Below are positions 3,057 through 18,255 of a stretch of 33,604 bases of DNA, piece by piece. The notes beneath the pieces are model-generated. The model did no database searches. It was not told the origin of the DNA and saw only the letters and a program-made list of their open reading frames with translations. Source of the stretch: Desulfarculales bacterium (GTDB lineage: Bacteria; Desulfobacterota; Desulfarculia; Desulfarculales; Desulfarculaceae); the NCBI GenBank assembly GCA_031267815.1, contig JAIRYI010000097.1, positions 1-33,604 of the forward strand. The letters are read 5' to 3'. Within the stretch, counting starts at the first letter, position 1, and each line of letters opens with the position of its first letter. The position numbers and the translations under genes are program-made.

Positions 3057-3160
3057 ACATCATAAATTACAATAATTATGTTCAATTTTATCACTAGAAT
3101 CTTGCGGATAGGGGCGTGCCGGGCGGGCATGCCTCCATTGTTTTGGGAAAGGCCGGCGGC

Positions 3161-4066
3161 TTGAAAATAGTTATATTGGGTAAAAATGGACAGGTGGGAA
3201 CGGAACTGCTAAAAAGTCTGGCCTGCCTGGGCCGGGTGCTGGCTCCGGGCAGAACGGAGTTTGATTTAGGCGACGCAGGGGCTCTGCAAGCTTATTTTCT
3301 CGCTCACCGGCCGGCTATTATCGTCAATGCCGCCGCCTACACCGAAGTGGACCAGGCCCAGAGCCGGCCGCGGGCGGCTATGCTGCTCAACGCCGCCCTG
3401 CCTTCCCGTCTGGCCCGTCTGGCCCGGCAAACGGGCGCCTGGCTTATTCATTTTTCCAGCGACTATGTTTACGACGGCGCCAAAACTTCTCCTTATAAGG
3501 AAGATGATCCTCCCAATCCTCTAAATATATACGGGTACAGCAAACTGGCCGGCGATCGGGCCATCATGCGTTCCGGATCCCGCCATATCATCCTGCGCAC
3601 CAGTTGGGTATATAGCGGGCGGCGGCGCAATTTTGTGCGCTCCATTCTCGGGTTGGCCAGAAAACGCTCCTCGGTGCAGGTGGTCTCTGATCAAAAAGGC
3701 GCGCCTACCAGCGCCGCTCTGCTGGCCCAGGTCACATCCCAGATCATTCCCGCGCTCGTTCGCTCACCTCACCCTGATAATTTGTCCGGGTTATACCATT
3801 TGAGCGCCCGGGGACACATCAGCTGGTACGGCTACGCCCGCTACATAATAAATCAGGCCGGCCGTCTGGGAGGGTGTTTCCCCCTCACCGCCGCGGGGAT
3901 AATTCCCTGCGGCAGCGGGCAGTATCCTTCCCCGGCCCCCCGGCCGGCCAATTCCTGTCTGGATAGCGGTAAATTGGAAAATACTTTTAATCTCAGCCTG
4001 CCGGCGTGGAATTATCATTTGGATATTCTGCTGCAAGAGTTGGCGGAGCAGGACTGGGCAGGGTAA
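3161..4066 (+). CDS. rfbD: RmlD-type dTDP-4-dehydrorhamnose reductase
   Basis: NAD(P)H-dependent short-chain reductase of the RmlD substrate-binding family, which makes dTDP-L-rhamnose from the 4-keto sugar for O-antigen or other surface glycans. From the TTG start the protein has 301 residues, the usual length. It shows the Rossmann motif GKNGQVG (7-13), NAAAYTEVD, SSDYVYDG (99-106) and the catalytic Tyr124-xxx-Lys128 pair in YGYSK. I chose TTG at 3161 because it aligns the protein start with the first beta strand (LKIVILG) and follows GGGAAAGG at 3145-3152. A GTG at 3116 would add 15 unlikely residues. RmlA, RmlB and RmlC are not nearby, so the exact nucleotide-sugar substrate is inferred. 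Confidence 0.88.
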   Translation: MKIVILGKNGQVGTELLKSLACLGRVLAPGRTEFDLGDAGALQAYFLAHRPAIIVNAAAYTEVDQAQSRPRAAMLLNAALPSRLARLARQTGAWLIHFSSDYVYDGAKTSPYKEDDPPNPLNIYGYSKLAGDRAIMRSGSRHIILRTSWVYSGRRRNFVRSILGLARKRSSVQVVSDQKGAPTSAALLAQVTSQIIPALVRSPHPDNLSGLYHLSARGHISWYGYARYIINQAGRLGGCFPLTAAGIIPCGSGQYPSPAPRPANSCLDSGKLENTFNLSLPAWNYHLDILLQELAEQDWAG

Positions 4067-4093
4067 TATTTGCCGGGCCCAATAAGTAAATTG

Positions 4094-4111
4094 CGGCAGC
4101 TTGCCCTGCCG
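4094..4111 (+). other. Hairpin downstream of rmlD-type gene
   Basis: CGGCAG and CTGCCG form a 6-base-pair stem with a 6-base loop 28 bases after the reductase stop. It is not followed by a T run, so it is not a convincing intrinsic terminator. It could be an attenuator or an mRNA 3' stabiliser ahead of the lipoprotein gene. Confidence 0.3.
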
Positions 4112-4148
4112 TTGAACCGGAAATACATTTATAGCACCAGAGCCGGAT

Positions 4149-4601
4149 ATGAAAAGATTTTTTAAACGCCCCCTGTTTATCTGTTTTTTGTTTTTATCTT
4201 CCTGCGGCGGCAGTGATAATATCAGCATGATAAAAGACATCGTCATGCCCGGTTACCCTGACATGACCATCGGTCAGGCTCTGGAGGCGGCCTTTGACGA
4301 TCCTCTGTGGAAATCGGCCGTTCTGATAAACGGAAAGGTTCAAGTGGCTTTTGAAGGCAAAATAAGCCAGGCCACCCACGATCTGGCGGTAAGTGAATAT
4401 CTCCGGCGGGGCGGAGGCAATGATAGCAATCCGGCTTATCTGGATGAAATATGGCCTGTCGGTTCCCAGGCGCTTTTTGTCTGGAGTCACGCCAGGGATG
4501 AAGAAGTTTTCACTTTAATCGAAGTTGTCAATGAATACTGGAATCATAACGCTGTGCCCACCGTAACTATTTGGAATATTGTTCATCGCAGCGGTGACTG
4601 A
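4149..4601 (+). CDS. Small hypothetical lipoprotein
   Basis: I do not recognise a named family. The 150-residue product begins with MKRFFKR, a hydrophobic stretch and a lipobox ending in LSSC (Cys near 19), so it should be lipidated and sent to the inner or outer membrane. The mature part contains TIGQALEAAFDDPLWKS and VAFEGKI. This general look is shared by small secreted proteins with a predicted compact beta-rich fold in enterobacteria, but I cannot name the family. The C-terminal half is rich in aromatics (NEYWNHN). It lies between the reductase and the TonB-family gene on the same strand, with 3 bases to the latter, which suggests joint expression and an envelope role. Confidence 0.75.
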   Translation: MKRFFKRPLFICFLFLSSCGGSDNISMIKDIVMPGYPDMTIGQALEAAFDDPLWKSAVLINGKVQVAFEGKISQATHDLAVSEYLRRGGGNDSNPAYLDEIWPVGSQALFVWSHARDEEVFTLIEVVNEYWNHNAVPTVTIWNIVHRSGD

Positions 4602-4604
4602 CGG

Positions 4605-5330
4605 ATGCGCATGCCCCCGCTCACTGACTTTGCCTGGCGGAAGGATGCGGCGGAAGCATATATCCGCCCCCCGCGCCCGTCCCCCTGGCCCTGGCTGTTC
4701 AGTATTTTTTTGCATGGGCTTTTACTTGCCGCTCTGCTCCAGGGCCTGCCGTCCGGGCCGGCTGATATCAGCTTTCATATTGTGACCCTTGTAGCCGGGC
4801 CGGGAGACAGGGATCAATCCGGATCCGCAAATTCCGAAACTGACCGTAAAGCGCTTGCTCCCGCCGCTGACCCTGTAAAAACTCCGGCCGCGGCGCGGAG
4901 GCCGGGCGGGGAGGTGATTGCTTCTTCCCCGGCTGCCGGGCAGGGGGGAACTGCCTCCGGGAGCGCGGATTCCCAACAGGAGGAGGGGAAGGGAGACGCC
5001 GGGAAGCAGGGGTTTGCTCTTAATTCATCTTCTTACACTGTTGACCAGGTTGACCGGAAGCCGCGGGCTGTTTATACGGTACAGCCGGTCTATCCTTATC
5101 TGGCTCAGCGGCGCGGAATTGAGGGCTGGGTGGAAGTGCGCTTTCTGGTAAACCGGGACGGCCTGATTACCCGGGAGGAAGTCACCCAGGCTCAACCCGA
5201 GGGTATATTTGAAAATTCGGCTCTTAAGGCCCTGCGCGCCTGGCGTTTTTCCCCTGGCCTGATAGGGGGACGGAAAGTGGATACCTGGATGGTGCAGGTA
5301 ATTCGTTTTAAACTTGTCCGGCCAGGGTAA
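4605..5330 (+). CDS. tonB: TonB-family energy-transducing protein
   Basis: TonB proteins couple the proton motive force, through ExbB/ExbD, to outer-membrane transporters. The 241-residue product has a short cytoplasmic N-terminus, one transmembrane helix at about 29-47 containing the SxxxH signature (Ser33, His37), a Gly/Ala/Pro-rich periplasmic linker (about 70-150) and a C-terminal TonB domain from about 158 with [19 protein letters not shown] and the ALRAWRFSP signature. The gene is nearly complete in every expected part. No exbB, exbD or receptor gene is nearby, so the partner is unknown. It sits 3 bases after the lipoprotein gene and 55 bases before arnB. The linker is shorter and less rich in Pro-Lys/Glu repeats than in E. 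coli TonB. Confidence 0.85.
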
Positions 5331-5385
5331 AGGCGTAAAAATCCGGTATACTTCCAAGTTAAAACTTTTGCAGGAGTTTTCGAGT

Positions 5386-6519
5386 ATGAACGATTTTTTG
5401 CCTTTTTCACGCCCGGCGATCGGGGAAGCCGAAATCGCCGCAGTGGAAGAGGTAATGCGCTCGGGATGGATAACCACCGGGGCCAAGAATATTGAACTGG
5501 AAGAGGCTTTTCGCTCAACCCTGGCCTGTGAACACGCCCTGGCCCTTTCCTCAGCCACGGCCGGCATGCATCTGGTTCTGGCGGCGCTGGGCGTAGGCCC
5601 TGGCGATGAAGTTGTCACGCCCTCTCAGACCTGGGTTTCGACTTTGAATATGATTGTGCTTTTGGGTGCTGAACCGGTAATGATTGATGTGGATCGGGAC
5701 ACGCTCATGGTCGGCGCGGAAGCGGTGGAGGCGGCCATTACCCCCCGGACCAAAGCTATTGTGCCGGTACATTATGCCGGGGCGCCTCTTGATATTTTCT
5801 CTTTGCGGGAGGTGGCCGCGGCTCACCGCCTTCCTTTGATTGAAGATGCGGCCCATGCCCTGGGCGCCCGTTGCGGTTCGCAGTGGGTGGGGGAGAAGGG
5901 CACGGCCATATTTTCTTTTCACGCTATAAAAAATGTGACCTGCGCGGAAGGGGGGATGGTGGTCACCGACGATCCTTCCCTGGCTGAACGGGTGCGGCGC
6001 CTTAAGTTCCACGGTCTGGGCGTCGATGCTTTCGACCGTGAACAGCAGGGGCGCAAACCCCAGGCGGAAGTGGTTGAACCGGGATTTAAATATAATCTTT
6101 CCGATATTCACGCCGCCATGGCGGCGGTGCAGTTTTCCCGCCTGTCCGAGTTGAACGCCCGGCGCAGAATGTTGGCGGAGCGTTATCTGGCGGCGTTGCG
6201 CGGTTCTCCGTTTATGCCCCTGGCCCTGCCTGCCTATTCTCATCTGCATGCCTGGCATTTATTCATGATCCGGGTGGATGAGAAGCGCTGCGGTTTTGGC
6301 CGGGATGTTCTGATGGAACGCCTTAAAGAGGCGGGCATTGGCACGGGCCTGCATTTCAGAGCCGTTCATACTCAGAAATACTACCGCCAGCGCTATCCGG
6401 GCCTGTCTCTGCCTCATACAGAGTGGAATTCCGAACGCCTGTGTACTTTGCCTCTGTTCCCGGACATGGACGAAAGCGATGTGGACAGAGTGATTCAAAC
6501 TTTATTTGCTTTAGTGTAA
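5386..6519 (+). CDS. arnB: UDP-4-amino-4-deoxy-L-arabinose aminotransferase
   Basis: PLP-dependent DegT/DnrJ/EryC1-type aminotransferase that converts the UDP-4-keto-pentose made by ArnA to UDP-L-Ara4N, using glutamate. The 377-residue protein starts [17 protein letters not shown], as in enterobacterial ArnB. The PLP lysine is residue 182 (FSFHAIKNV), and the cofactor-binding EDAAHALG lies at 153-160. The ATG at 5386 follows CAGGAG at a good distance. A GTG at 5314 in the same frame would overlap tonB and is rejected. This is the first gene of the arnBCADT block, and arnC begins two bases after its stop. Confidence 0.95.
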
Positions 6520-6521
6520 TT

Positions 6522-7499
6522 ATGGATAAATGTGAAGGTATCAATAAAATATCGGTGGTAATTCCCGTTTTTAACGAACAGGAATCTCTGCCTCAGCTTT
6601 TAGAGCGCACCGCCGGCGCCTGCGCCGGCCTTAATCTCGCCTACGAGATAATTCTGGTGGATGACGGCAGCGATGATGATTCGGCCTCTTTAATCACCCA
6701 GGCCGCCGCAACCCCGCAAAGCCATGTGGTGGCGGTTATTTTGAACCGCAATTACGGCCAGCACGCGGCGGTGATGGCCGGTCTGAGCCAGGCGGAGGGA
6801 GATCTGATCATAACTATGGATGCTGATTTGCAAAATCCTCCGGAAGAAATTCCCCGCCTGGTAGATGTGGCAAAGGAAGGATATGATGTAGTGGGTACGG
6901 TGCGGGAGAACCGTCAGGATTCCTGGTTTCGCCGGGTCTGCTCCTATCTGATCAACCGGATGATTCAGCGGGCCACAGGCAAAGCCATGAGCGATTACGG
7001 CTGTATGCTGCGAGCCTATCGCCGTCACATAGTGGAGGCTATGCTGCTCTGCCGGGAACGCAGCACTTTTATCCCCATTTTGGCCAACTCCTTTGCCCGG
7101 CACAGCCAGGAGATCAAAGTTACTCACGCTCCCCGGGAGTTCGGCTATTCCAAATACAGCCTGTTCAAACTCATCAACCTGATGTTTGATCTTGTGACTT
7201 GTCTCACCACCGCCCCTCTGCGTCTGCTCAATCTGCTGGGCTGCCTTGTTGCCTGCTTTGGTTTCCTGCTGGCCTTTACCATTGTGGTGCTGCGTTTTCT
7301 TTTGGGGCCGGAATGGGCGGCAGAGGGGGTGTTTATGCTTTTTGCTATTTTGTTTATTTTTATCGGCGCCCAGTTTGTGGGCTTGGGGCTTCTGGGCGAA
7401 TATATCGGCCGTATTTATACTGACGTCCGCGCCCGGCCCCGTTATTTTATTCAGGAAATCATTGGCAAGCCTATGGTTGAAAATAAATGGAGCGACTGA
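6522..7499 (+). CDS. arnC: Undecaprenyl-phosphate 4-deoxy-4-formamido-L-arabinose transferase
   Basis: Inner-membrane GT2 glycosyltransferase that moves the formylated Ara4N from UDP to undecaprenyl phosphate on the cytoplasmic face. The 325-residue protein has [10 protein letters not shown] at 11-20, VDDGS near 46-50, the metal-binding DAD at 100-102, and two C-terminal transmembrane helices at about 235-260 and 268-292, exactly the ArnC layout. The ATG at 6522 lies two bases after the arnB stop. An in-frame ATG at 6423, inside arnB, is rejected. Its TGA overlaps the arnA ATG (TGATG), which indicates translational coupling. Confidence 0.95.
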
Positions 7500-9472
7500 T
7501 GAGAGCGGTAGTGTTTGCTTACCATGACCTGGGCTGTATCGGCTTGCAGGCATTGATTGATTCAGGTTATCAGATAGAGGCGGTTTTCACTCATGTGGAC
7601 GATCCCGGGGAAAAACAGTTTTTTTCTTCGGTGGCCCGTTGGGCGGCCGGGTTTAAGCTGCCGGTTTATGCCCCTGACGACGTCAACCACCCTATCTGGC
7701 GGGAAATGATCCGAAAAATAAACCCTGAAGTTATATTTTCTTTTTATTACCGCCGCCTGCTCTCAGAAGATCTGCTGGCTCTGGCCGGCCGGGGCGCCTA
7801 CAATCTGCACGGGTCCCTGCTGCCCCGCTACCGGGGCAGAGCCCCGCTTAACTGGGTGCTTATAAACGGTGAGAAGCAAACCGGAGTCACTTTGCACAAA
7901 ATGGTCAAAAAGCCGGACGCCGGAGATATAGCCGGGCAGGAGGCGGTGCCCATCAGCGATGATGATGACGCGCCCGGTCTGCACGGCAAAATATGCGCGG
8001 CGGCCAAAACGCTTTTGGCCGGGGTTTTGCCGCGGATAAAAGACGGCTCATTGCTCCTCACCCCGCAGGATGAAAGTAAAGCCAGCTATTTCGGCCGGCG
8101 CACTCCCGCGGACGGCGCTATCGACTGGAGCAGGCCGGCGGCGGAAATCGGCAATCTTATCCGGGCGGTGACCGAGCCCTACCCAGGCGCTTTTACCAAT
8201 CTGGGCCAGCGCCGCCTGATCATATGGAAGGCAAGGCCTCTTGACCGGCAGCACAGTAAAGCTCCGGGAACGGTGTTGACGGTTGATCCTCCGATCATTG
8301 CCTGCGGGCAGGGCGCTCTGGAAATTATAAGCGGCCAGGCGGAGGACGGACTCTATCAGGAAGGAAGTTTTCTGAGCAAGGCTCTGAACCTGACCGTGGG
8401 CTTACGTTTTGTAGAAAACGTAAGCCTGCCGCCCGCGCCCCAACGGCGCACCCGGGTGCTGATTCTGGGGGTTAACGGTTTTATCGGCAATCATCTTACC
8501 GAGCGCCTGCTGAACGAAGACAATTATGAGATTTACGGTCTGGACATTGCTTCCGACGCCATCAGCCGTTTCCTGAATCACCCTCATTTTCATTTTGTGG
8601 AAGGTGACATCGGCATTCATACGGAATGGATTGAATACCATATCAAGAAAAGCGACGTGATCCTGCCTTTGGTGGCTATTGCCACTCCTATTGAGTATAC
8701 CCGCAATCCTCTGCGGGTATTTGAACTGGACTTTGAGGAGAATTTAAAAATAGTGCGCTATTGTGTGAAATATAAAAAGCGTATTGTTTTCCCCTCCACC
8801 TCGGAAGTGTACGGTATGTGCGACGATGACGAGTTTAATGAGGACTCGTCCCGTCTGATTCTTGGCCCCATCAATAAACAGCGCTGGATATATTCAGCTT
8901 GCAAACAGTTGCTGGACAGGGTTATCTGGGCTTACGGGGCCGGTCAGGGTTTGCGCTTTACTCTGTTCCGCCCCTTTAACTGGATGGGGCCGCGCCTGGA
9001 TACTCTGGATTCGGCCCGGATAGGCAGTTCCCGGGCCATTACCCAGCTTATTCTCAATCTGGTGGAGGGATCGCCCTTTAATCTGGTTGACGGCGGAGCG
9101 CAGAAGCGCTGTTTTACGGATATCCATGACGGTATTGAAGCCCTGTTCCGCATAATCGAAAACCGGGCGGGGGTTTGCGACAGCCAGATTATCAACATCG
9201 GCAACCCTCATAATGAAGCCAGCATCAGTGAACTGGCCAAGCTGTTGCTGGATTGCTTTGAGGCTCATCCCCTGCGCGGCTGTTTCCCTCCTTTTGCCGG
9301 GTTTAAAATCGTGGAGAGCAGCAATTATTACGGACAGGGTTATCAGGACGTGGCCCATCGCCGTCCCAGCATCGCCAATGCCCGCCGCCTGTTGGGCTGG
9401 AGCCCCGGAATCCCCCTGCGCAAGACCGTGGAAGACACATTGGATTTTTTTCTGCGCTCCGTGGCGGAATAA
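7499..9472 (+). CDS. arnA: Bifunctional UDP-L-Ara4N formyltransferase / UDP-glucuronate 4-decarboxylase
   Basis: Cytoplasmic two-domain enzyme of 657 residues, the normal ArnA length. The N-terminal half (about 1-300) is the formyltransferase, with [12 protein letters not shown]. Asn102, His104 and Asp140 fall at the same numbers as the catalytic residues of E. coli ArnA. The C-terminal half (about 317-657) is the NAD-dependent decarboxylase, with [10 protein letters not shown] (324-333), STSEVYG (433-439; catalytic Ser435/Glu436), Tyr465-xxx-Lys469, and the Arg in [10 protein letters not shown] that matches the key Arg of the family. The decarboxylase oxidises UDP-glucuronate and the N-domain formylates the ArnB product. 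The start overlaps the arnC stop, and I preferred this ATG to one 12 bases upstream. Confidence 0.97.
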
Positions 9473-9478
9473 CAGAAG

Positions 9479-10381
9479 ATGAGAAAAATCGGCCTGCGGG
9501 TGGATGCTGATACTTTCACCGGCACCAGGGACGGGACTCCTCGCCTGTTGGAGATGCTGGCCCGCCACAATATCAAAGCCAGTTTTTTTTTCAGCGTGGG
9601 GCCGGACAATATGGGCCGCCATCTGTGGCGTCTCTGCCGCCCCGCCTTCTTGCGCAAAATGCTGCGTTCAGATGCTTCGTCCCTCTATGGCTGGGATATT
9701 TTATTGGCCGGGACCGCCTGGCCGGGCAGGAGAATCGCTTCCCGTCTGGGCGCCGTATTGCGCCAGACTATGGCCTGCGGCCATGAGATAGGTCTGCATG
9801 CCTGGGATCATTATGCCTGGCAGACTTGGATTGAACACTGGCCGCGGGAAAAAATAGAACAGCAGCTGCGCCTGGGCCTGGACTCCTTGCAGCAGTGCCT
9901 GGGAGAAAAAGTGAATTGTTCGGCCTCTCCCGGCTGGCGGGCGGATCAGCGGGTGGTTGCGGTCAAGGAATCTCTGGCCATGCGCTATCACAGCGACTGC
10001 CGCGGGTTTACGCCCTTCCGCCCTGTATTGGACCACGGAGCGGGCGCCGCTGCCGTTCAGATTCCGGTCAGCCTGCCCACTTTTGATGAAGCTGTGGGCA
10101 GGGTCGTCAGTCAGGATGATTTTAACAGTTATATTATGCGGGCTTGGGCGGAGTGCGATGGGACTCCGGTTTACACTATTCATACTGAAGTGGAAGGCGT
10201 TTCCCGGGCCGGCCTGTTCGCCGCTCTGCTGGAGCGGGCCTGGGAGCGCGGTTTTACCTTTTGCCCTCTGGGAGCGTTGCTGCCCTCTGATCTCCATTCC
10301 CTGCCCTTGGGCCGGATAGAAAAATCCCTCTTCCCCGGCCGGGAAGGCTGGCTGGGTTTGCAAGCCGGGTTGCCGGTATAA
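9479..10381 (+). CDS. arnD: Undecaprenyl phosphate-4-formamido-Ara4N deformylase
   Basis: Metal-dependent polysaccharide-deacetylase-family enzyme that removes the formyl group from the lipid-linked Ara4N, making the arnC step irreversible. The 300-residue protein has the expected RVDAD motif (Asp9, Asp11) and GHEIGLHAWDH with His102, His107 and His111 near the metal site. Length matches the family. It begins six bases after the arnA stop. It is followed by a 103-base gap before arnT, the only loose junction in the arn block. Confidence 0.94.
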   Translation: MRKIGLRVDADTFTGTRDGTPRLLEMLARHNIKASFFFSVGPDNMGRHLWRLCRPAFLRKMLRSDASSLYGWDILLAGTAWPGRRIASRLGAVLRQTMACGHEIGLHAWDHYAWQTWIEHWPREKIEQQLRLGLDSLQQCLGEKVNCSASPGWRADQRVVAVKESLAMRYHSDCRGFTPFRPVLDHGAGAAAVQIPVSLPTFDEAVGRVVSQDDFNSYIMRAWAECDGTPVYTIHTEVEGVSRAGLFAALLERAWERGFTFCPLGALLPSDLHSLPLGRIEKSLFPGREGWLGLQAGLPV

Positions 10382-10484
10382 AAAAAGACGCTGCCCCGCC
10401 CGCCGGATAAACAACCCCGGCAGATCAGTCCGCAGCGGGGCGGATATGGTTTCATGATATTTTGTTTTTAAAATGGCATAGCTA

Positions 10485-12230
10485 ATGAGTTCTTACGCGC
10501 GATACAACCAGGATCTCCCCTGTCCTTATTCCTCCGCCCAGGAGGCGAAAGGCCTGCGGATAACTTCTTCTTTCACCGTGCCCTGGGCGGCGTTGCTGCT
10601 TTTCCTCTACCTGCTGATTTACATTGTGCCGCTTAATAACACCTATCTCTGGGAACCTGACGAAACCCGTTATTCGGAAATAAGCCGGGAAATGCTGAAC
10701 AGCGGAGATTGGGTCGTCCCCCATTTTCTGGACATACGCTATTTTGAGAAACCCATTGCCGGTTACTGGATCAACAGTTTAAGCCAGATGTTTTGGGGAG
10801 ACAGCAATTTCGCGGTGCGCTTCGGTTCCGCTTGCAGCACAGGCATAAGCATAATCCTGGTCTACCATCTGGCCCTGCTCATGCGCCGCCGCCAGGCGGC
10901 GGCCTTTAACGCCGCCCTGATCTATATGACCCTGTCTCTGGTGGCGGGAGTGGGAACATTCAGCGTGCTGGATCCTATGCTGACCATGTGGATGAGTCTG
11001 GCTCTGCTGTGCCATTATCTTTCCGTGCGCGCCTCCAGCCGGAGAGGCAAAGCCGGAGCCTACGCCCTGTTGGGTCTGGCCTGCGGCATGGGATTTTTAA
11101 CTAAAGGTTTTTTGGCTTTGGCCATTCCCGTTGTTTCCGCGTTGCCGGTGGCCTTGAGTCAGAAAAAATTCAAAGAATTGATCTGCTATGGCCCTATAGC
11201 CATTGTCAGCGCCGGTATAATAAGTCTTCCCTGGTGTCTTGCCGTGGCCTGGGCCGAACCTGATTTCTGGCATTACTTTTTCTGGGTGGAACATATCCAG
11301 CGCTTTGCTCTGGAACAGGCCCAACACAGCGAACCCTTCTGGTTTTATATCCCTGTTTTTATAGGTCTGTCTCTGCCCTGGATCGGGCTGCTGCCCGGCG
11401 CCCTGGTTACAGCCTGGCAAAGGCGGATTAAAGAGCCGGAGTCTTTTTTTCTGCTCAGTTGGCTGATTATGCCCTTTTTATTTTTTAGCGCCGCCAACGG
11501 TAAACTGATAACCTATATTCTGCCCTGCATGGCCCCTCTGGCCCTTTTGATGGCTTCTTACATCGAAGAAAGCGGCGCAAAAGGGAATTGCCGGGGATTG
11601 AAAATAAACGGTTTGATTATTTTGATTCTGGCCTTGCTGGGTCTGTTATCTCCTCTGGTTCTGACTTCCGATTTCTGGCTGAAGGAAATACTTTATTCAC
11701 CTCAGGAATGGTTCAAGCTGGCGCTTATGGTAATGATCTGTCTGCTTTGGGCTGGGGCCGGCTGGTTAGCCTGGCGGCGTTCCGCCTCATTTTGGCGTTT
11801 GGCGGTCATCTGTCCTTTGCTGGCTTTGACGCTGGACGGATTTATTCTTCCTGATGTGATAATTGACCGCAAACAACCCCAGCGATGTATTCGGGAAAAC
11901 CTTGACGATTTAGCCAAGACGCCTTATCTGGCGGCGACCGCTCCGGAACTGGGCGCGGCTCTGGCGTGGGAATTGAAACGGGCTGATATCGAACTGATTC
12001 AGTCCAAGGGAGAACTCAGCTACGGTCTTGATTATCCTGACAGTCAAAACCGTTTTCTGCGGGCGGAGCAATTTAAAGGCTGGCTGGAAAATACCAGAAA
12101 GCAGGGCGAAGTGGCGGTAATGACCGCTTGCGCTCCGGAAAAATCTCTGCCATCCTATCTTCCTCCTCCCGATCGGCTGGAGCGGAAGGGGAATCATGTT
12201 TTATTGTTCTACGGGCAAAGAGGAAGTTGA
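10485..12230 (+). CDS. arnT: Undecaprenyl phosphate-Ara4N transferase (lipid A 4-amino-4-deoxyarabinose transferase)
   Basis: Polytopic inner-membrane glycosyltransferase (GT83, related to PMT/GT39) that moves L-Ara4N from undecaprenyl phosphate to lipid A phosphate on the periplasmic side. At 581 residues it is close to the E. coli enzyme. The first periplasmic loop carries EPDETRYSEISREML, then GDWVVP, then RYFEKPIAGYWIN, all hallmark ArnT motifs with the acidic residues thought to be catalytic. About a dozen hydrophobic segments follow, then a soluble C-terminal domain. It has a longer N-terminus (about 30 residues before the first helix) than the E. coli protein. Its last 30 bases overlap the 3' end of the convergent dinG-type gene. 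Confidence 0.95.
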   Translation: MSSYARYNQDLPCPYSSAQEAKGLRITSSFTVPWAALLLFLYLLIYIVPLNNTYLWEPDETRYSEISREMLNSGDWVVPHFLDIRYFEKPIAGYWINSLSQMFWGDSNFAVRFGSACSTGISIILVYHLALLMRRRQAAAFNAALIYMTLSLVAGVGTFSVLDPMLTMWMSLALLCHYLSVRASSRRGKAGAYALLGLACGMGFLTKGFLALAIPVVSALPVALSQKKFKELICYGPIAIVSAGIISLPWCLAVAWAEPDFWHYFFWVEHIQRFALEQAQHSEPFWFYIPVFIGLSLPWIGLLPGALVTAWQRRIKEPESFFLLSWLIMPFLFFSAANGKLITYILPCMAPLALLMASYIEESGAKGNCRGLKINGLIILILALLGLLSPLVLTSDFWLKEILYSPQEWFKLALMVMICLLWAGAGWLAWRRSASFWRLAVICPLLALTLDGFILPDVIIDRKQPQRCIRENLDDLAKTPYLAATAPELGAALAWELKRADIELIQSKGELSYGLDYPDSQNRFLRAEQFKGWLENTRKQGEVAVMTACAPEKSLPSYLPPPDRLERKGNHVLLFYGQRGS

Positions 12231-14124: not shown

Positions 14125-15132
14125 TTATGAATTGTCAGGGGCGGAGGAATTGGCGGCCGGGGCAGGCGGAGGCGCCGGTCTGGCCGCCTGAGAGGCTCTG
14201 TTGCCGGCGGCCTGCAGGGCCTCGTCCAGTTCCTTGACGAGTTGGTTCTGATTATCTTCCGCCGCCGCCACTTTATTCTGGCTGGCCATGAGCGAACTTA
14301 CCACCGCCGCTTTTTCCGGAGGCATGGCATTCATGATCCGGCCGGCTATCCGGGGAGAGAGCTTGCTCACCACTTCCACCGCCAGGTCGTTGCGCAGCAT
14401 GGTTATCACACTGGCGCCGGCCGCCGGTTTCATCTGGCCTATTATCTTGCTAACCTGCAAAACCTTGGTTTCGCGCTCTTCCATGGACATTTTGATGTCA
14501 TCCGTGGCTTTTTCCTGCTGTTCACCAATACTGGTTACAGCTTCCATTGCCGCTTGCACCTGTTTCAATTCGGCCAGACGGGCTTCAATATCGCCTCTGA
14601 GCTGTTCCATGCTCTGCCGTTCCAGATTAAGCCTGGCCTCTTCAGCGGCCAGCAAGGCTTTTTTATCTTCCAGCTCCTGGTCAATATAAGGCTGTACCGC
14701 CTGCGATTGGGCCTCTGCCTGAGATTTGATCTCCGCCAGGGTAAGAGAATCCGAATCAAACTCATTTTCCTGCGCCTCTTCTCCACCCAAGTCAAGCGGT
14801 TCCACGCTTAGGGCCAGATTACGGCGCAGACGTTCCAGCTGTTCCCTTTTTTCCGGACTCAAATCAGAATCAGAAATTTCATCTTCCTCGGGCGCGGAGT
14901 CGAAGGAAGGCAGCCCTTCCGCACGGTGGCGGGTCATTTCCCGGCTGATGCTGTTCTGCAATTCCACCAGTTGCTGGCGGGCGGCGTTGGCCGCGGCTTC
15001 CTCTTCCCGCGAAGCCGCGTCAGAAACAGGAGGCGAAGGAGAGGTTATAGCCAGCGCCAGCAAAACCGCCATAGCCAGAACTCCGATTTTAAGGAGCATA
15101 TTAAAAGGAGATGAATGCTTCTTTTTGTTCAT
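14125..15132 (-). CDS. MotE-like flagellar protein with MgtE-N-type domain
   Basis: 335-residue protein with a short basic N-terminus, one hydrophobic anchor at about 12-30, a long acidic and coiled-coil region (about 40-220), and a C-terminal segment (about 225-290) resembling the MgtE intracellular N domain (VSKLSPRIAGRIMNAMPPEKAA is split across it). A Pro/Ala-rich tail follows. Proteins of this layout follow fliJ in many deltaproteobacteria; the alphaproteobacterial MotE is a periplasmic chaperone for MotC. The anchor suggests a mostly periplasmic protein acting near the motor. Its start overlaps the fliJ stop by four bases, and dinG follows one base after its stop. The exact role is inferred from family and position. 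Confidence 0.8.
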   Translation of the reverse strand: MNKKKHSSPFNMLLKIGVLAMAVLLALAITSPSPPVSDAASREEEAAANAARQQLVELQNSISREMTRHRAEGLPSFDSAPEEDEISDSDLSPEKREQLERLRRNLALSVEPLDLGGEEAQENEFDSDSLTLAEIKSQAEAQSQAVQPYIDQELEDKKALLAAEEARLNLERQSMEQLRGDIEARLAELKQVQAAMEAVTSIGEQQEKATDDIKMSMEERETKVLQVSKIIGQMKPAAGASVITMLRNDLAVEVVSKLSPRIAGRIMNAMPPEKAAVVSSLMASQNKVAAAEDNQNQLVKELDEALQAAGNRASQAARPAPPPAPAANSSAPDNS

Positions 15133-15575
15133 GAAATTTTCCCCCGCGCGTAAGCGCCCACCGCCACTTCATCCAACAGGTTGCGTTCCATGGCGGCCAA
15201 GGCCTTTTCATATTCTTTTTTATCCCGTTCCATTAACAAATCCAGAGCTTTGCGGTTTTGCATGGCTTCTACCAGCGCGCTCCGGGCCTGATTGCTCTGA
15301 GCAATGAGCAAAGGCAGTCTGGCTTCTTCGCGCAGCGCTTGCAAACGCAGCAAGGTTACATATTCATTATTTAGAATAAAACTGCTGGCATCCATGCCGG
15401 CCTGTTCCTGGGCGGTCATATTGCGGCGGATGCGCAGCATTTCCTCCCGCAGCCAGATTACGCGCTCTTCACATTGCTTTTGCGCCTGCAAACATAACCC
15501 CAGTTCAGCTTTCGCTTTATCTTCCAAATGGAGGCGGTGGTTTAAAACTGATTGCAGGCGAAATTTAAAGGCCAT
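15129..15575 (-). CDS. fliJ: Flagellar export protein FliJ
   Basis: Small, fully helical coiled-coil protein (148 residues) of the flagellar type III export apparatus. It sits in the FliI ring like a rotor stalk and escorts chaperone-substrate complexes. It begins MAFKFRLQSVLNHR, the typical FliJ N-terminus, and stays strongly charged and heptad-like to about residue 130. The ATG at 15575 is preferred to in-frame TTG codons at 15584 and 15581, because an AGGATT ribosome site fits it and the motif starts there. It overlaps the motE-like gene by four bases. It is separated from fliI by an inserted SGNH hydrolase gene, but a sigma-54 site at 15624-15639 can drive it. Confidence 0.9.
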   Translation of the reverse strand: MAFKFRLQSVLNHRLHLEDKAKAELGLCLQAQKQCEERVIWLREEMLRIRRNMTAQEQAGMDASSFILNNEYVTLLRLQALREEARLPLLIAQSNQARSALVEAMQNRKALDLLMERDKKEYEKALAAMERNLLDEVAVGAYARGKIS

Positions 15576-15584
15576 TGGCAACAA

Positions 15585-15959
15585 TCCTGTAAAATTTCAA
15601 ATCATCTATGTCAATAGTTAATATGCAATATCTGTGCCTTAACCCGGATAAAAGCATGGGCCAAAGGCATTCCCGCTTAATGGCTGCCGTCGCTACGTTT
15701 TCACAGTAATGACGGAGAAGTTGAGGAAGCGCTGATTAATTCGCTTAACTGCATAATTCAGCCCGCTTCCGGATTGCACCGAACGCTTACGCGCGCCACT
15801 CGCAATGACGGGAAGACCGTGAAAATTCACGCGATTTTTCATCCGTCATTCCGTGGCTCCTTTGAAAACGCTTAAACGTGTTTCCGCTGGAGCGGTCTGC
15901 TCCTGTTCAAGAAAAGGGTCAGGATCTTTGGCGCATGCTCTGAGCAGCAATCCTGGCTG
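15585..15959. repeat. Non-coding region with two diverged copies of an interspersed repeat
   Basis: No gene is visible between fliJ and the SGNH hydrolase. Two stretches, about 15678-15716 and 15771-15812, both end in AATGACGG and resemble the widespread bacterial intergenic repeat running from ATTGCTTCG to TCGCAATGACGG; the second copy has GGATTGCACCG at its left and CTCGCAATGACGGG at its right. An inverted CCGTCATTCCG follows at 15843-15853, and CGTGAA/TTCACG forms a small hairpin at about 15817-15830. The family resemblance is from memory; copy number elsewhere cannot be judged here. Confidence 0.5.
15624..15639 (-). promoter_or_regulatory. Sigma-54 promoter for fliJ-motE-dinG
   Basis: Minus-strand AGGCACAGATATTGCA matches the sigma-54 consensus TGGCACG-N4-TTGCW with intact GG (-24) and GC (-12) elements and exact spacing. 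It lies about 49 bases before the fliJ ATG. RpoN-dependent flagellar promoters are well known in proteobacteria. No activator site was identified. Confidence 0.7.
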
Positions 15960-16730
15960 TTACGGCAATATCTGCTTTATCCTGGCCGCCAGCGCCTGTC
16001 CCAGCCTGGCGTTGGCTTCGGGAGTAAAATGTATGCCGTCAATGCCGTCAGCCACCGGGATTATGCTGGCGGCGTCAAAAAATTCTACCTTTTCGCTTTG
16101 GGCTATGGCCTGATAAGCCGGAGCCAGCTGCCGGGCCAGTTCATAACCTCCACCAAAAAGGCTGTTCATTCTCTCTGACTTGCCCTCTGTCACCGGAGGT
16201 GGCGCCACCAGTAATATTTTAGGCTCAACTCCGCGCGTTGCGCCCAGTTTAACTATCCTGATCAAATGAGTGACAGAGGCCTTTATGCTGTCCAAATTTT
16301 GCTGGTTGTAGGGCCGGATATCATTGGTGCCCAGCATGATCAGCACCAGAGCCAGAGGTTCATGGCTCCTGATAATCGGCAGCAAGGTGGGGCGGCCGTT
16401 TAGATTTAAATCATTCTGGATAGACGAATCCAGCGATTTGGCGGCCGAAAAATCATCAACCCCGGCATTACGGCCGTTCAGCCCTTCTTCTATGACCACA
16501 AAATCCGCGCCTAACTGGTTCTGCAAAACCCCCGGCCAGCGAATCTCATAAGGAAAACGCTGAGGCGGCGACGGATTTTCCAAAGGCACAAATCCCCAGG
16601 TGAGCGAATCACCGTAAAGCAATATTCCGGCTTTCTCGGGCGCCGCGGCGCAAGCCAGGCCGACGCTTAATAGGATAATCAATAACTGGCTGAAAATTAT
16701 CTGTTTTAATCTCTTTTTACTGGAAAACAT
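15960..16730 (-). CDS. Secreted SGNH/GDSL hydrolase, arylesterase/acyltransferase type
   Basis: 256-residue SGNH hydrolase with an N-terminal signal peptide (basic start, hydrophobic 10-27, likely cut in the ACAAA region; a lipidated Cys27 is less likely because -3 is Gly). The four family blocks are present: GDSLTWG with nucleophile Ser42, EEGLNGRNAG (81-90), GTND (134-137) and DGIHF with Asp231 and His234. The wording of these blocks closely resembles the Mycobacterium smegmatis arylesterase/acyltransferase (MsAcT) rather than TesA. The natural substrate is unknown; esters of surface glycans are one option. It splits fliI from fliJ, has its own ribosome site (AAGGAG) and AT-rich promoter region, and is flanked by repeats. 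This looks like an insertion into the flagellar block. Confidence 0.88.
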   Translation of the reverse strand: MFSSKKRLKQIIFSQLLIILLSVGLACAAAPEKAGILLYGDSLTWGFVPLENPSPPQRFPYEIRWPGVLQNQLGADFVVIEEGLNGRNAGVDDFSAAKSLDSSIQNDLNLNGRPTLLPIIRSHEPLALVLIMLGTNDIRPYNQQNLDSIKASVTHLIRIVKLGATRGVEPKILLVAPPPVTEGKSERMNSLFGGGYELARQLAPAYQAIAQSEKVEFFDAASIIPVADGIDGIHFTPEANARLGQALAARIKQILP

Positions 16731-16797
16731 TATCTTTTCTCCTTAAATTTCATCGACGTCAAAGATTGCACGTTTAATGCATATTAAATACATATGA

Positions 16798-16832
16798 ATT
16801 ATATACATTGACACGAATTCTATCTTTGTCAA
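16798..16832 (-). promoter_or_regulatory. Candidate promoter and operator-like inverted repeat for the SGNH hydrolase gene
   Basis: On the minus strand a perfect TATAAT (16798-16803) lies about 70 bases before the start codon. Immediately upstream is an inverted repeat TTGACA-N13-TGTCAA (16808-16832) that covers where the -35 box would be. TTGACA itself is 23 bases from TATAAT, too far for a standard pair. A regulator binding the repeat is inference. Confidence 0.4.
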
Positions 16833-16849
16833 GGCCCTGTTTTATTTAC

Positions 16850-16864
16850 CGCCCCATTGGGGCG
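16850..16864 (-). terminator. Hairpin after fliI
   Basis: CGCCCC-ATT-GGGGCG is a GC-only 6-base-pair stem with a 3-base loop, 48 bases downstream of the fliI stop. On the minus strand it is followed by GTAAATAAAAC, not a clear U run. It may end the flgB-fliI transcript before the SGNH gene, but termination efficiency is doubtful. Confidence 0.35.
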
Positions 16865-16911
16865 CGGAAAAGTAATTTTTAGCGGGAATTAAAATAAGCC
16901 GCCTCATCCGC

Positions 16912-18255
16912 TTATCTTCGGCGCATGAGTTCCGAGTCCGGGGTGTTGATGAGTTCCAAAAGCTGCTGGCGGCTGGCGTTGACGTCAACCTTTTGATGCT
17001 GCTCTTGGGTGAGGAAAGCGTTAATGCGATCCTGCAGGCGGCGGGCCCGGTCTATTTTAGGATTGGAGCCTTCCACGTAAGCGCCGATATTGATCAGATC
17101 CTCAGCCTTTTGGTAGGCGGACATAAGTTCCATTAGCTGGCGGGCGGCGGCTAAAACCGGAGGAGGGTTGAGAGTGGTGATGAGACGGCTTACCGAACCG
17201 GTCACTTCCACCGCCGGATAGTGGCCTTGATCCGCCAGGCGGCGGCTCAGTAGTACATGGCCGTCCAGAATGGAGCGCATGGCGTCGGCTACCGGTTCGG
17301 TGACGTCATCGCCTTCCACCAGCACCGTGTAGATGCCGGTAATGGAGCCTTGCCCCCGGCAAGTTCCGGCCCGTTCCAGGAGACGGGGAAACTGCGCGAA
17401 GACACTGGGAGTATAGCCTTTAGTGGTGGGGGGTTCGCCTATGGACAGGCCGACCTCCCTGGCGGCCATGGCAAATCTGGTTACAGAGTCCATCATCAGC
17501 ACCACGTCGCGGCCCTGATCACGAAAATATTCGGCAATGGAAGTAGCCATGTAAGCGCAGCGGATGCGCACCAGGGCCGGCTGATCGCTGGTGGCCACAA
17601 CCACCACGCTGCGTTTAAGTCCCTCTTTGCCCAAGTCGTTTTCCACAAATTCCCGTACTTCCCGGCCCCGTTCGCCAATGAGGCAGATAACGCTGACGTC
17701 AGCGGCGGTGTGCTGGGCTATCATGCCCATCAGGGTGGATTTGCCTACGCCGGAGCCGGCAAAAATGCCGATGCGCTGTCCTTTGCCCAAAGTAATAAGG
17801 CTGTTGATGACCCTGACCCCCACATCCACCGCCTCGGTAATAAGTTTGCGGCCCATAGGGGAAGGCGCCTGCTGATAAAGAGGATAGAGATCGGCATAAT
17901 CAGGCTCCGCCCCGCCGTCAATTGCTTGACCAAGTCCGTCAATAACCCGGCCTAAAAGTCCCGGCCCCACCCGCACCAGGTTTTCCCGATCCGCCGGAGA
18001 TACCAGACAACCCACCGCCAAGCCTCTGGTCTCGGCATAAGGCATGATAAGCATCCGTTCTCCCCGGAAACCTACAACTTCTCCCAGAATTTTCTCCTGA
18101 CCGTCAATATGAATGAATACGCCCGCCCCCACGGGAAGCTTTATCCCCTGAGCTTCCGCCACCAGACCGACCACCTGAGTTATCCGGCCTCTCTGGAGGA
18201 CAGGGTCAAAATCATTTAAGGCGGTTAAATAGTCATGAAAACAAGATGGGGTCAC
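16912..18255 (-). CDS. fliI: Flagellum-specific ATPase FliI
   Basis: Cytoplasmic hexameric ATPase of flagellar type III export, related to the F1 beta subunit. 447 residues, normal length. It shows the Walker A motif AGSGVGKS (166-173), the GERGREVREFVENDL motif, Walker B DVVLMMDSVTRFAMAAREVGLS (broken here as VVLMMDS then VTRFAMA), and the family sequence GEPPTTKGYTPSVFA. The start overlaps the fliH stop by four bases (ATGA), so translation is coupled. FliJ, its stalk partner, is not next but beyond the SGNH hydrolase gene. Confidence 0.97.
   Translation of the reverse strand: MTPSCFHDYLTALNDFDPVLQRGRITQVVGLVAEAQGIKLPVGAGVFIHIDGQEKILGEVVGFRGERMLIMPYAETRGLAVGCLVSPADRENLVRVGPGLLGRVIDGLGQAIDGGAEPDYADLYPLYQQAPSPMGRKLITEAVDVGVRVINSLITLGKGQRIGIFAGSGVGKSTLMGMIAQHTAADVSVICLIGERGREVREFVENDLGKEGLKRSVVVVATSDQPALVRIRCAYMATSIAEYFRDQGRDVVLMMDSVTRFAMAAREVGLSIGEPPTTKGYTPSVFAQFPRLLERAGTCRGQGSITGIYTVLVEGDDVTEPVADAMRSILDGHVLLSRRLADQGHYPAVEVTGSVSRLITTLNPPPVLAAARQLMELMSAYQKAEDLINIGAYVEGSNPKIDRARRLQDRINAFLTQEQHQKVDVNASRQQLLELINTPDSELMRRR

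Follow-up and report, generated by a model that had tools for sequence, protein, structure and literature searches.

Enzymes of the Est24/M. smegmatis arylesterase group assemble into oligomers and hydrolyze short-chain esters or transfer acyl groups. LaSGNH1, a different SGNH esterase, is reported to act on both glyceryl tributyrate and glucose pentaacetate (PMC6981805). We analyzed a gene for an exported-type relative of the Est24 group that lies between the flagellar genes fliI and fliJ of a Desulfarculales bacterium; a search of the literature, at the level of titles and the starts of abstracts, returned no account of a hydrolase placed with these two genes. The insertion is confirmed, its horizontal gain is well supported, and the enzyme itself is ordinary.

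The genome is a 2.38-Mb draft in 109 contigs that is 92% complete, and the stretch that we analyzed, called the window here, is one entire contig (C76, 33,604 bases). On its minus strand, the order is fliF, fliG (identified by eye), fliH, fliI, 181 nt of AT-rich sequence, the hydrolase gene, a 384-nt stretch containing a repeat, fliJ, and a motE-like gene. The hydrolase open reading frame (ORF; 15960 to 16730, minus strand) is complete, with an ATG start and 256 amino acids. Its product scored above the cut-off for both Pfam GDSL families, and the identity of FliI and FliJ on its two sides was confirmed. A reading made earlier from the letters of the window (the sequence-only reading) had proposed a 256-residue secreted SGNH hydrolase gene at this place, and these results bear it out. 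Both fliI (16912 to 18255, minus strand), which encodes the flagellar export ATPase, and fliJ (15129 to 15575, minus strand) are intact. The true fliJ start is probably the ATG at 15575, from which the product begins MAFKFRLQSVL as in relatives, and not the TTG at 15584. Coupled overlaps of 4 nt join fliH to fliI and fliJ to the motE-like gene (14125 to 15132, minus strand), as had been noted, whereas the gap from fliI to the conserved fliJ ATG is 1336 nt. Opposite the flagellar block, on the plus strand at 3116 to 12230, are sugar-nucleotide and lipid A-modification-like genes (RmlD-like, DegT aminotransferase, GT2, formyltransferase/epimerase, polysaccharide deacetylase, and PMT), which we take to resemble an L-Ara4N (arn) cluster. 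A 2026 report describes ciliate endosymbionts, one of them a member of the Desulfarculaceae, that have reduced genomes and no flagellum (PMC13103400). The genome of the window is small as well, yet it has kept flagellar genes, and we claim no tie to the ciliate endosymbionts.

The full-length catalytic domain matched solved esterases with an E value of 5e-46, so that a chance match is not a concern. All of the SGNH blocks that we looked for are in place, namely, the GDS(L) serine of block I, the Gly of block II, the G-x-N-D of block III, and the D-x-x-H of block V. The triad consists of Ser42, Asp231, and His234, and the oxyanion-hole positions are Gly86 and Asn136. Among 29 aligned sequences, Gly40-Asp41-Ser42, Gly134-Asn136-Asp137, Asp231, and His234 were invariant, and Gly86 was present without being invariant. 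When aligned with the M. smegmatis enzyme (2q0q), Ser42, Asn136, Asp231, and His234 correspond to its Ser11, Asn94, Asp192, and His195, whose roles in catalysis we assume. An AlphaFold model built with the 29 sequences had a pLDDT of 89 and the SGNH alpha/beta/alpha fold. A fold search with this model gave 133 PDB matches at an E value of ≤0.001, with SGNH enzymes at the top ranks and the best folds, 5hoe (Est24) and 2q0q, at 1.8 to 1.9 Å. Ranks 1 to 10 were all members of the Est24/M. smegmatis arylesterase group (E ≤ 1e-18), and the next match was at 1e-9. By sequence and predicted structure, the enzyme is closest to this group. By eye, the N terminus is a Sec-type export signal (approximately residues 1 to 29; 16644 to 16730, minus strand), with a helix at residues 4 to 25 in the model. 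The hydrolase is probably exported, and cleavage is likely by signal peptidase I, with a lipobox that is non-canonical.

We compared the junction between fliI and fliJ across relatives. We searched 26 genomes for FliI; of the 15 other family genomes among them, 9 gave a clear match and six had no FliI-level match. In each of the eight readable same-family junctions (L004 to L010 and L012), fliJ starts 2 to 12 nt past the fliI stop, in keeping with the statement of the sequence-only reading that the two genes are normally adjacent, and a locus from the same order (L011) has a gap of 7 nt. None of these eight junctions contains the hydrolase, which is thus not a conserved member of the flagellar cluster. 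The count excludes L013, where the FliJ match is weak, L014 to L020, where fliI is not followed by a FliJ match, and L021 (G013), the ninth family member with a clear FliI match, which stops within fliI. The loci L014 to L020 belong to class relatives of family f4, in which the flagellar order or the FliJ sequence differs. Five g4 genomes of the same family (G003, G007, G010, G012, and G014; L022 to L026) had best FliI matches of 32 to 33% and seem to be without flagella. No other genome of the same genus was among those turned up by our searches. The sequence-only reading had suggested comparing this junction in related genomes and had taken a clade-wide presence of the hydrolase as the mark of an old member; the gene proved not to be clade-wide.

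Since fliI and fliJ are both intact, the additional 1336 nt (15576 to 16911, minus strand) are a clean insertion of extra sequence relative to the adjacent genes of relatives. For same-strand ORFs of at least 90 amino acids, the segment holds the hydrolase ORF and, besides that, only the dispersed repeat. At the ends of the segment, we found neither an integrase or transposase gene nor terminal repeats or a duplicated target site. Two pairs of inverted repeats were considered as boundaries of the whole segment and rejected, as they were short or imperfect and inconsistent in order.

Searches of related genomes showed that the hydrolase is rare among them. Counting its own genome in every case, 1 of 60 relatives carried it, as did 1 of the 63 genomes of the class and 4 of the 395 of the phylum; the three other relatives in the phylum had 30 to 38% identity to it. 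Matches were present in 106 of 72,556 plasmid records (best, 41.5%, from Sinorhizobium), and distant ones were present in 3 of 50,697 phage records. Single-protein scans of genome contigs and viral contigs, for which the peptide patterns used were poor, returned no relative. When one genome per species was scanned by alignment, 79 loci were retained, and among the matches listed none exceeded 44%. From one of these, Anaerovibrio locus L075, we searched its family (5 of 189 genomes) and next the class to which a better match belongs, that of G455, which we presume from the Anaerovibrio label to be the Negativicutes. This class had kin in 8 of 380 genomes, the best of them L158 (52%) and L154 (50%). 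Six of the kin, from Selenomonadaceae and class-mates (L154 to L159), are 40 to 52% identical to the window protein and have in common with it a 10- to 12-residue insert after block II that is followed by LN[LF]NG.P[ST]..P. The distant relatives within the phylum of the window differ in the region of this insert and motif.

The window protein and the six kin formed a seven-member clade with support of 100/100 in a tree of 50 rows and 100/99 in a tree of 21 rows (out of 77, without L075). In the 21-row tree, p-AU was 0.43 with the six kin held together and 0.41 with the window protein joined to L154 and L158, so the tree gives no direction of transfer, and kin that are just 40 to 52% identical do not pick out a particular donor. 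In an initial tree of 68 rows, from which mainly redundant rhizobial members of the 79 loci had been left out, the gene grouped with L075 alone and with weak support (82/93); this placement was abandoned when L075 was dropped for a deletion. L075 (G441, 4977 to 5672) has the motif NGRPTL and is missing about 23 residues, among them the GR motif of block II; it is either a broken copy or the product of an assembly gap. Another locus from the class of G455, L160 (G640), pairs with L049 (G196) from the phylum of the window at 100/100, outside the window clade, which is perhaps another exchange between the two groups. These results show the closest known kin to be a small hydrolase subfamily, patchily distributed and mostly with export signals. 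Transfer of the gene between lineages is well supported by the sequence comparisons, and the proposal of an acquired gene is supported by the eight junctions without it, its absence from the rest of the class, and the finding of close kin only in a distant phylum, with which a phylogeny of the hydrolase, also suggested at the outset, groups it.

The 181 nt between the fliI stop and the hydrolase start (16731 to 16911, minus strand) contain 37% G+C, compared to a mean of 55% across 189 ORFs, which agrees with the AT-rich upstream region described before. This region has a ribosome-binding site, AAGGAG (16739 to 16744, minus strand), a TATAAT hexamer (16798 to 16803, minus strand), and, just upstream of TATAAT, the operator-like inverted repeat TTGACA-N13-TGTCAA (16808 to 16832). 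These signals of the sequence-only reading are therefore present, but as a promoter the match is poor and adds no weight to the proposal of acquisition. The 23-nt spacing of TTGACA and TATAAT makes them not a canonical sigma-70 pair, and no sigma-70-like site with a spacing of 16 to 18 was found, against a mean of 1.6 in shuffles. The inverted repeat, a motif chosen post hoc, had no further occurrences (N11-15) across 242.7 kb of other DNA of the genome and may be an operator. Another TTGACA, at 15609 to 15614 on the 5' side of fliJ, is followed by a similar AGAT stretch. Scanning the coding strand gave no terminator-like site, the region after fliI folded no better than shuffles (z −0.64), and an Rfam scan gave a single match (E value, 0.09) far under the gathering score.

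We rejected composition as evidence of foreign origin. The hydrolase gene, with 52.0% G+C, is at the 26th percentile for G+C and the 22nd for codon usage among the 189 ORFs (about 276 kb of the genome), and this ordinary composition implies a donor of like composition or an ameliorated transfer. The repeat between the hydrolase and fliJ (about 150 bp; 15721 to 15871) has a sharp 3' end (gcgcttccttaa) and is one of 16 matching places in the genome, several of the other copies being near contig ends. It was absent from the 19 other family genomes searched. The 15 other places mark it as a genome-wide dispersed element and not as a scar specific to the insertion; the repeat that had been cited on the fliJ side is there, but as an argument for acquisition it has no weight.

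The genes around the kin bear on function. At the closest homologue (G699), an antiterminator, the hydrolase, glycerol kinase, and a lipase-like alpha/beta hydrolase follow one another on one strand; the antiterminator is glycerol-3-phosphate responsive, and the glycerol kinase is above its family cut-off. The window genome encodes a full-length glycerol-kinase homologue on another contig, at 396 bits under a cut-off of 590, two genes from a glycerol-3-phosphate-oxidase-like gene. Other kin adjoin ABC-transporter genes (G711 and G455) or a metallophosphoesterase gene (G454 and the Anaerovibrio loci), and glycerol is pointed to by the one homologue context only. Flagellar neighbors were absent from every homologue context examined, and carbohydrate-active neighbors were absent from the close-kin loci examined.

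Based on these results, we think it probable that a secreted short-chain esterase with an ester-scavenging role was gained horizontally in this genome's own lineage and sits in the flagellar block incidentally. The gene, of the Est24/M. smegmatis arylesterase type and bringing its own leader, was inserted between fliI and fliJ and harmed neither, and fliJ and motE would then be reached via read-through or from a new upstream start. From the conserved residues and the fold, Ser42 would attack the ester carbonyl, Asp231 and His234 would complete the triad, and Gly86 and Asn136 would hold the oxyanion. The enzyme would work outside the cytoplasm, where it would deacylate small substrates that bear acetyl groups or other short chains. 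More tentatively, as the closest homologue is in a glycerol cluster, these substrates may be acylated glycerol or sugars that serve as nutrients. The position in the flagellar block would most likely be incidental.

A rival on the substrate alone, which keeps the same acquired gene, is that the enzyme acts on acetylated carbohydrates, such as plant or host glycans, and not on glycerol esters. We regard this as possible though doubtful: the top fold match, Est24, is titled a carbohydrate acetylesterase, and there is a weak similarity to the acetylxylan esterase AxeA1 (29 bits against a cut-off of 700), but the close-kin loci examined have no carbohydrate-active neighbors, and a glycerol cluster surrounds the closest kin. 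A flagellum-linked job, in which the enzyme deacylates flagellar or surface glycans or takes O-acetyl groups off peptidoglycan to let the rod cross the wall, is improbable. The gene is on the same strand within the flagellar block, its product is probably exported, and peptidoglycan O-acetylesterases are among the SGNH enzymes, with one structure, 4k3u, low in the fold list. However, no homologue context examined is flagellar, so the glycan role that the sequence-only reading had offered as speculation gains nothing from the kin, and the gene is missing from relatives that have fliI and fliJ. A search of the genome (92% complete) for acetyltransferases of the MBOAT (PatA) type found none, which is of mild weight against a peptidoglycan O-acetyl role.

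We give little credence to recruitment of the acquired enzyme to flagellar assembly, cotranscribed with fliI and fliJ and stripping O-acetyl groups for rod passage or trimming filament glycans. Such service would raise the importance of the gene if true, and nothing here points to it. It is comparably hard to see the hydrolase as an old resident of the site that relatives have lost; its ordinary composition would fit, but this account requires loss from all eight readable family junctions and everywhere else in the class, and the closest kin belong to another phylum. A false join through the dispersed repeat is extremely unlikely, for although a copy is exactly there and several others are near contig ends, non-repeat sequence joins fliI to the hydrolase, the flagellar gene order on either side is as in relatives, and this copy shares no exact stretch longer than 46 nt with any of the 15 other places.

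The locus is a clean example of a lone metabolic gene inside a comparatively well-conserved bacterial gene neighborhood with the neighbors unbroken. The comparison also delineates a small family of exported hydrolases, patchy in distribution, that is common to a Desulfobacterota lineage and relatives in the Selenomonadaceae, and the glycerol cluster is a first hint at the substrates of this family.

Compared to Est24 of Sinorhizobium meliloti (5hoe), the window protein has a like catalytic domain, with 41% identity across the aligned fold, a root mean square deviation of 1.8 Å, and a sequence match at an E value of 5e-46, to which it adds an N-terminal export signal and the 10- to 12-residue insert. 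The triad and oxyanion positions also align with those of the M. smegmatis aryl esterase/acyltransferase (2q0q; 42% identity), from which the window protein differs in its predicted export and in the insert. The hydrolases of the Selenomonadaceae and class-mates (L154 to L159; 40 to 52% identity) have a like insert and the NG.P[ST]..P motif, and L155 to L159 have an export signal by eye, L154 being cut at a contig edge. Unlike the window gene, those among them whose loci were examined are in non-flagellar surroundings, and L158, the member in the glycerol cluster, has a lipobox-like LASC.
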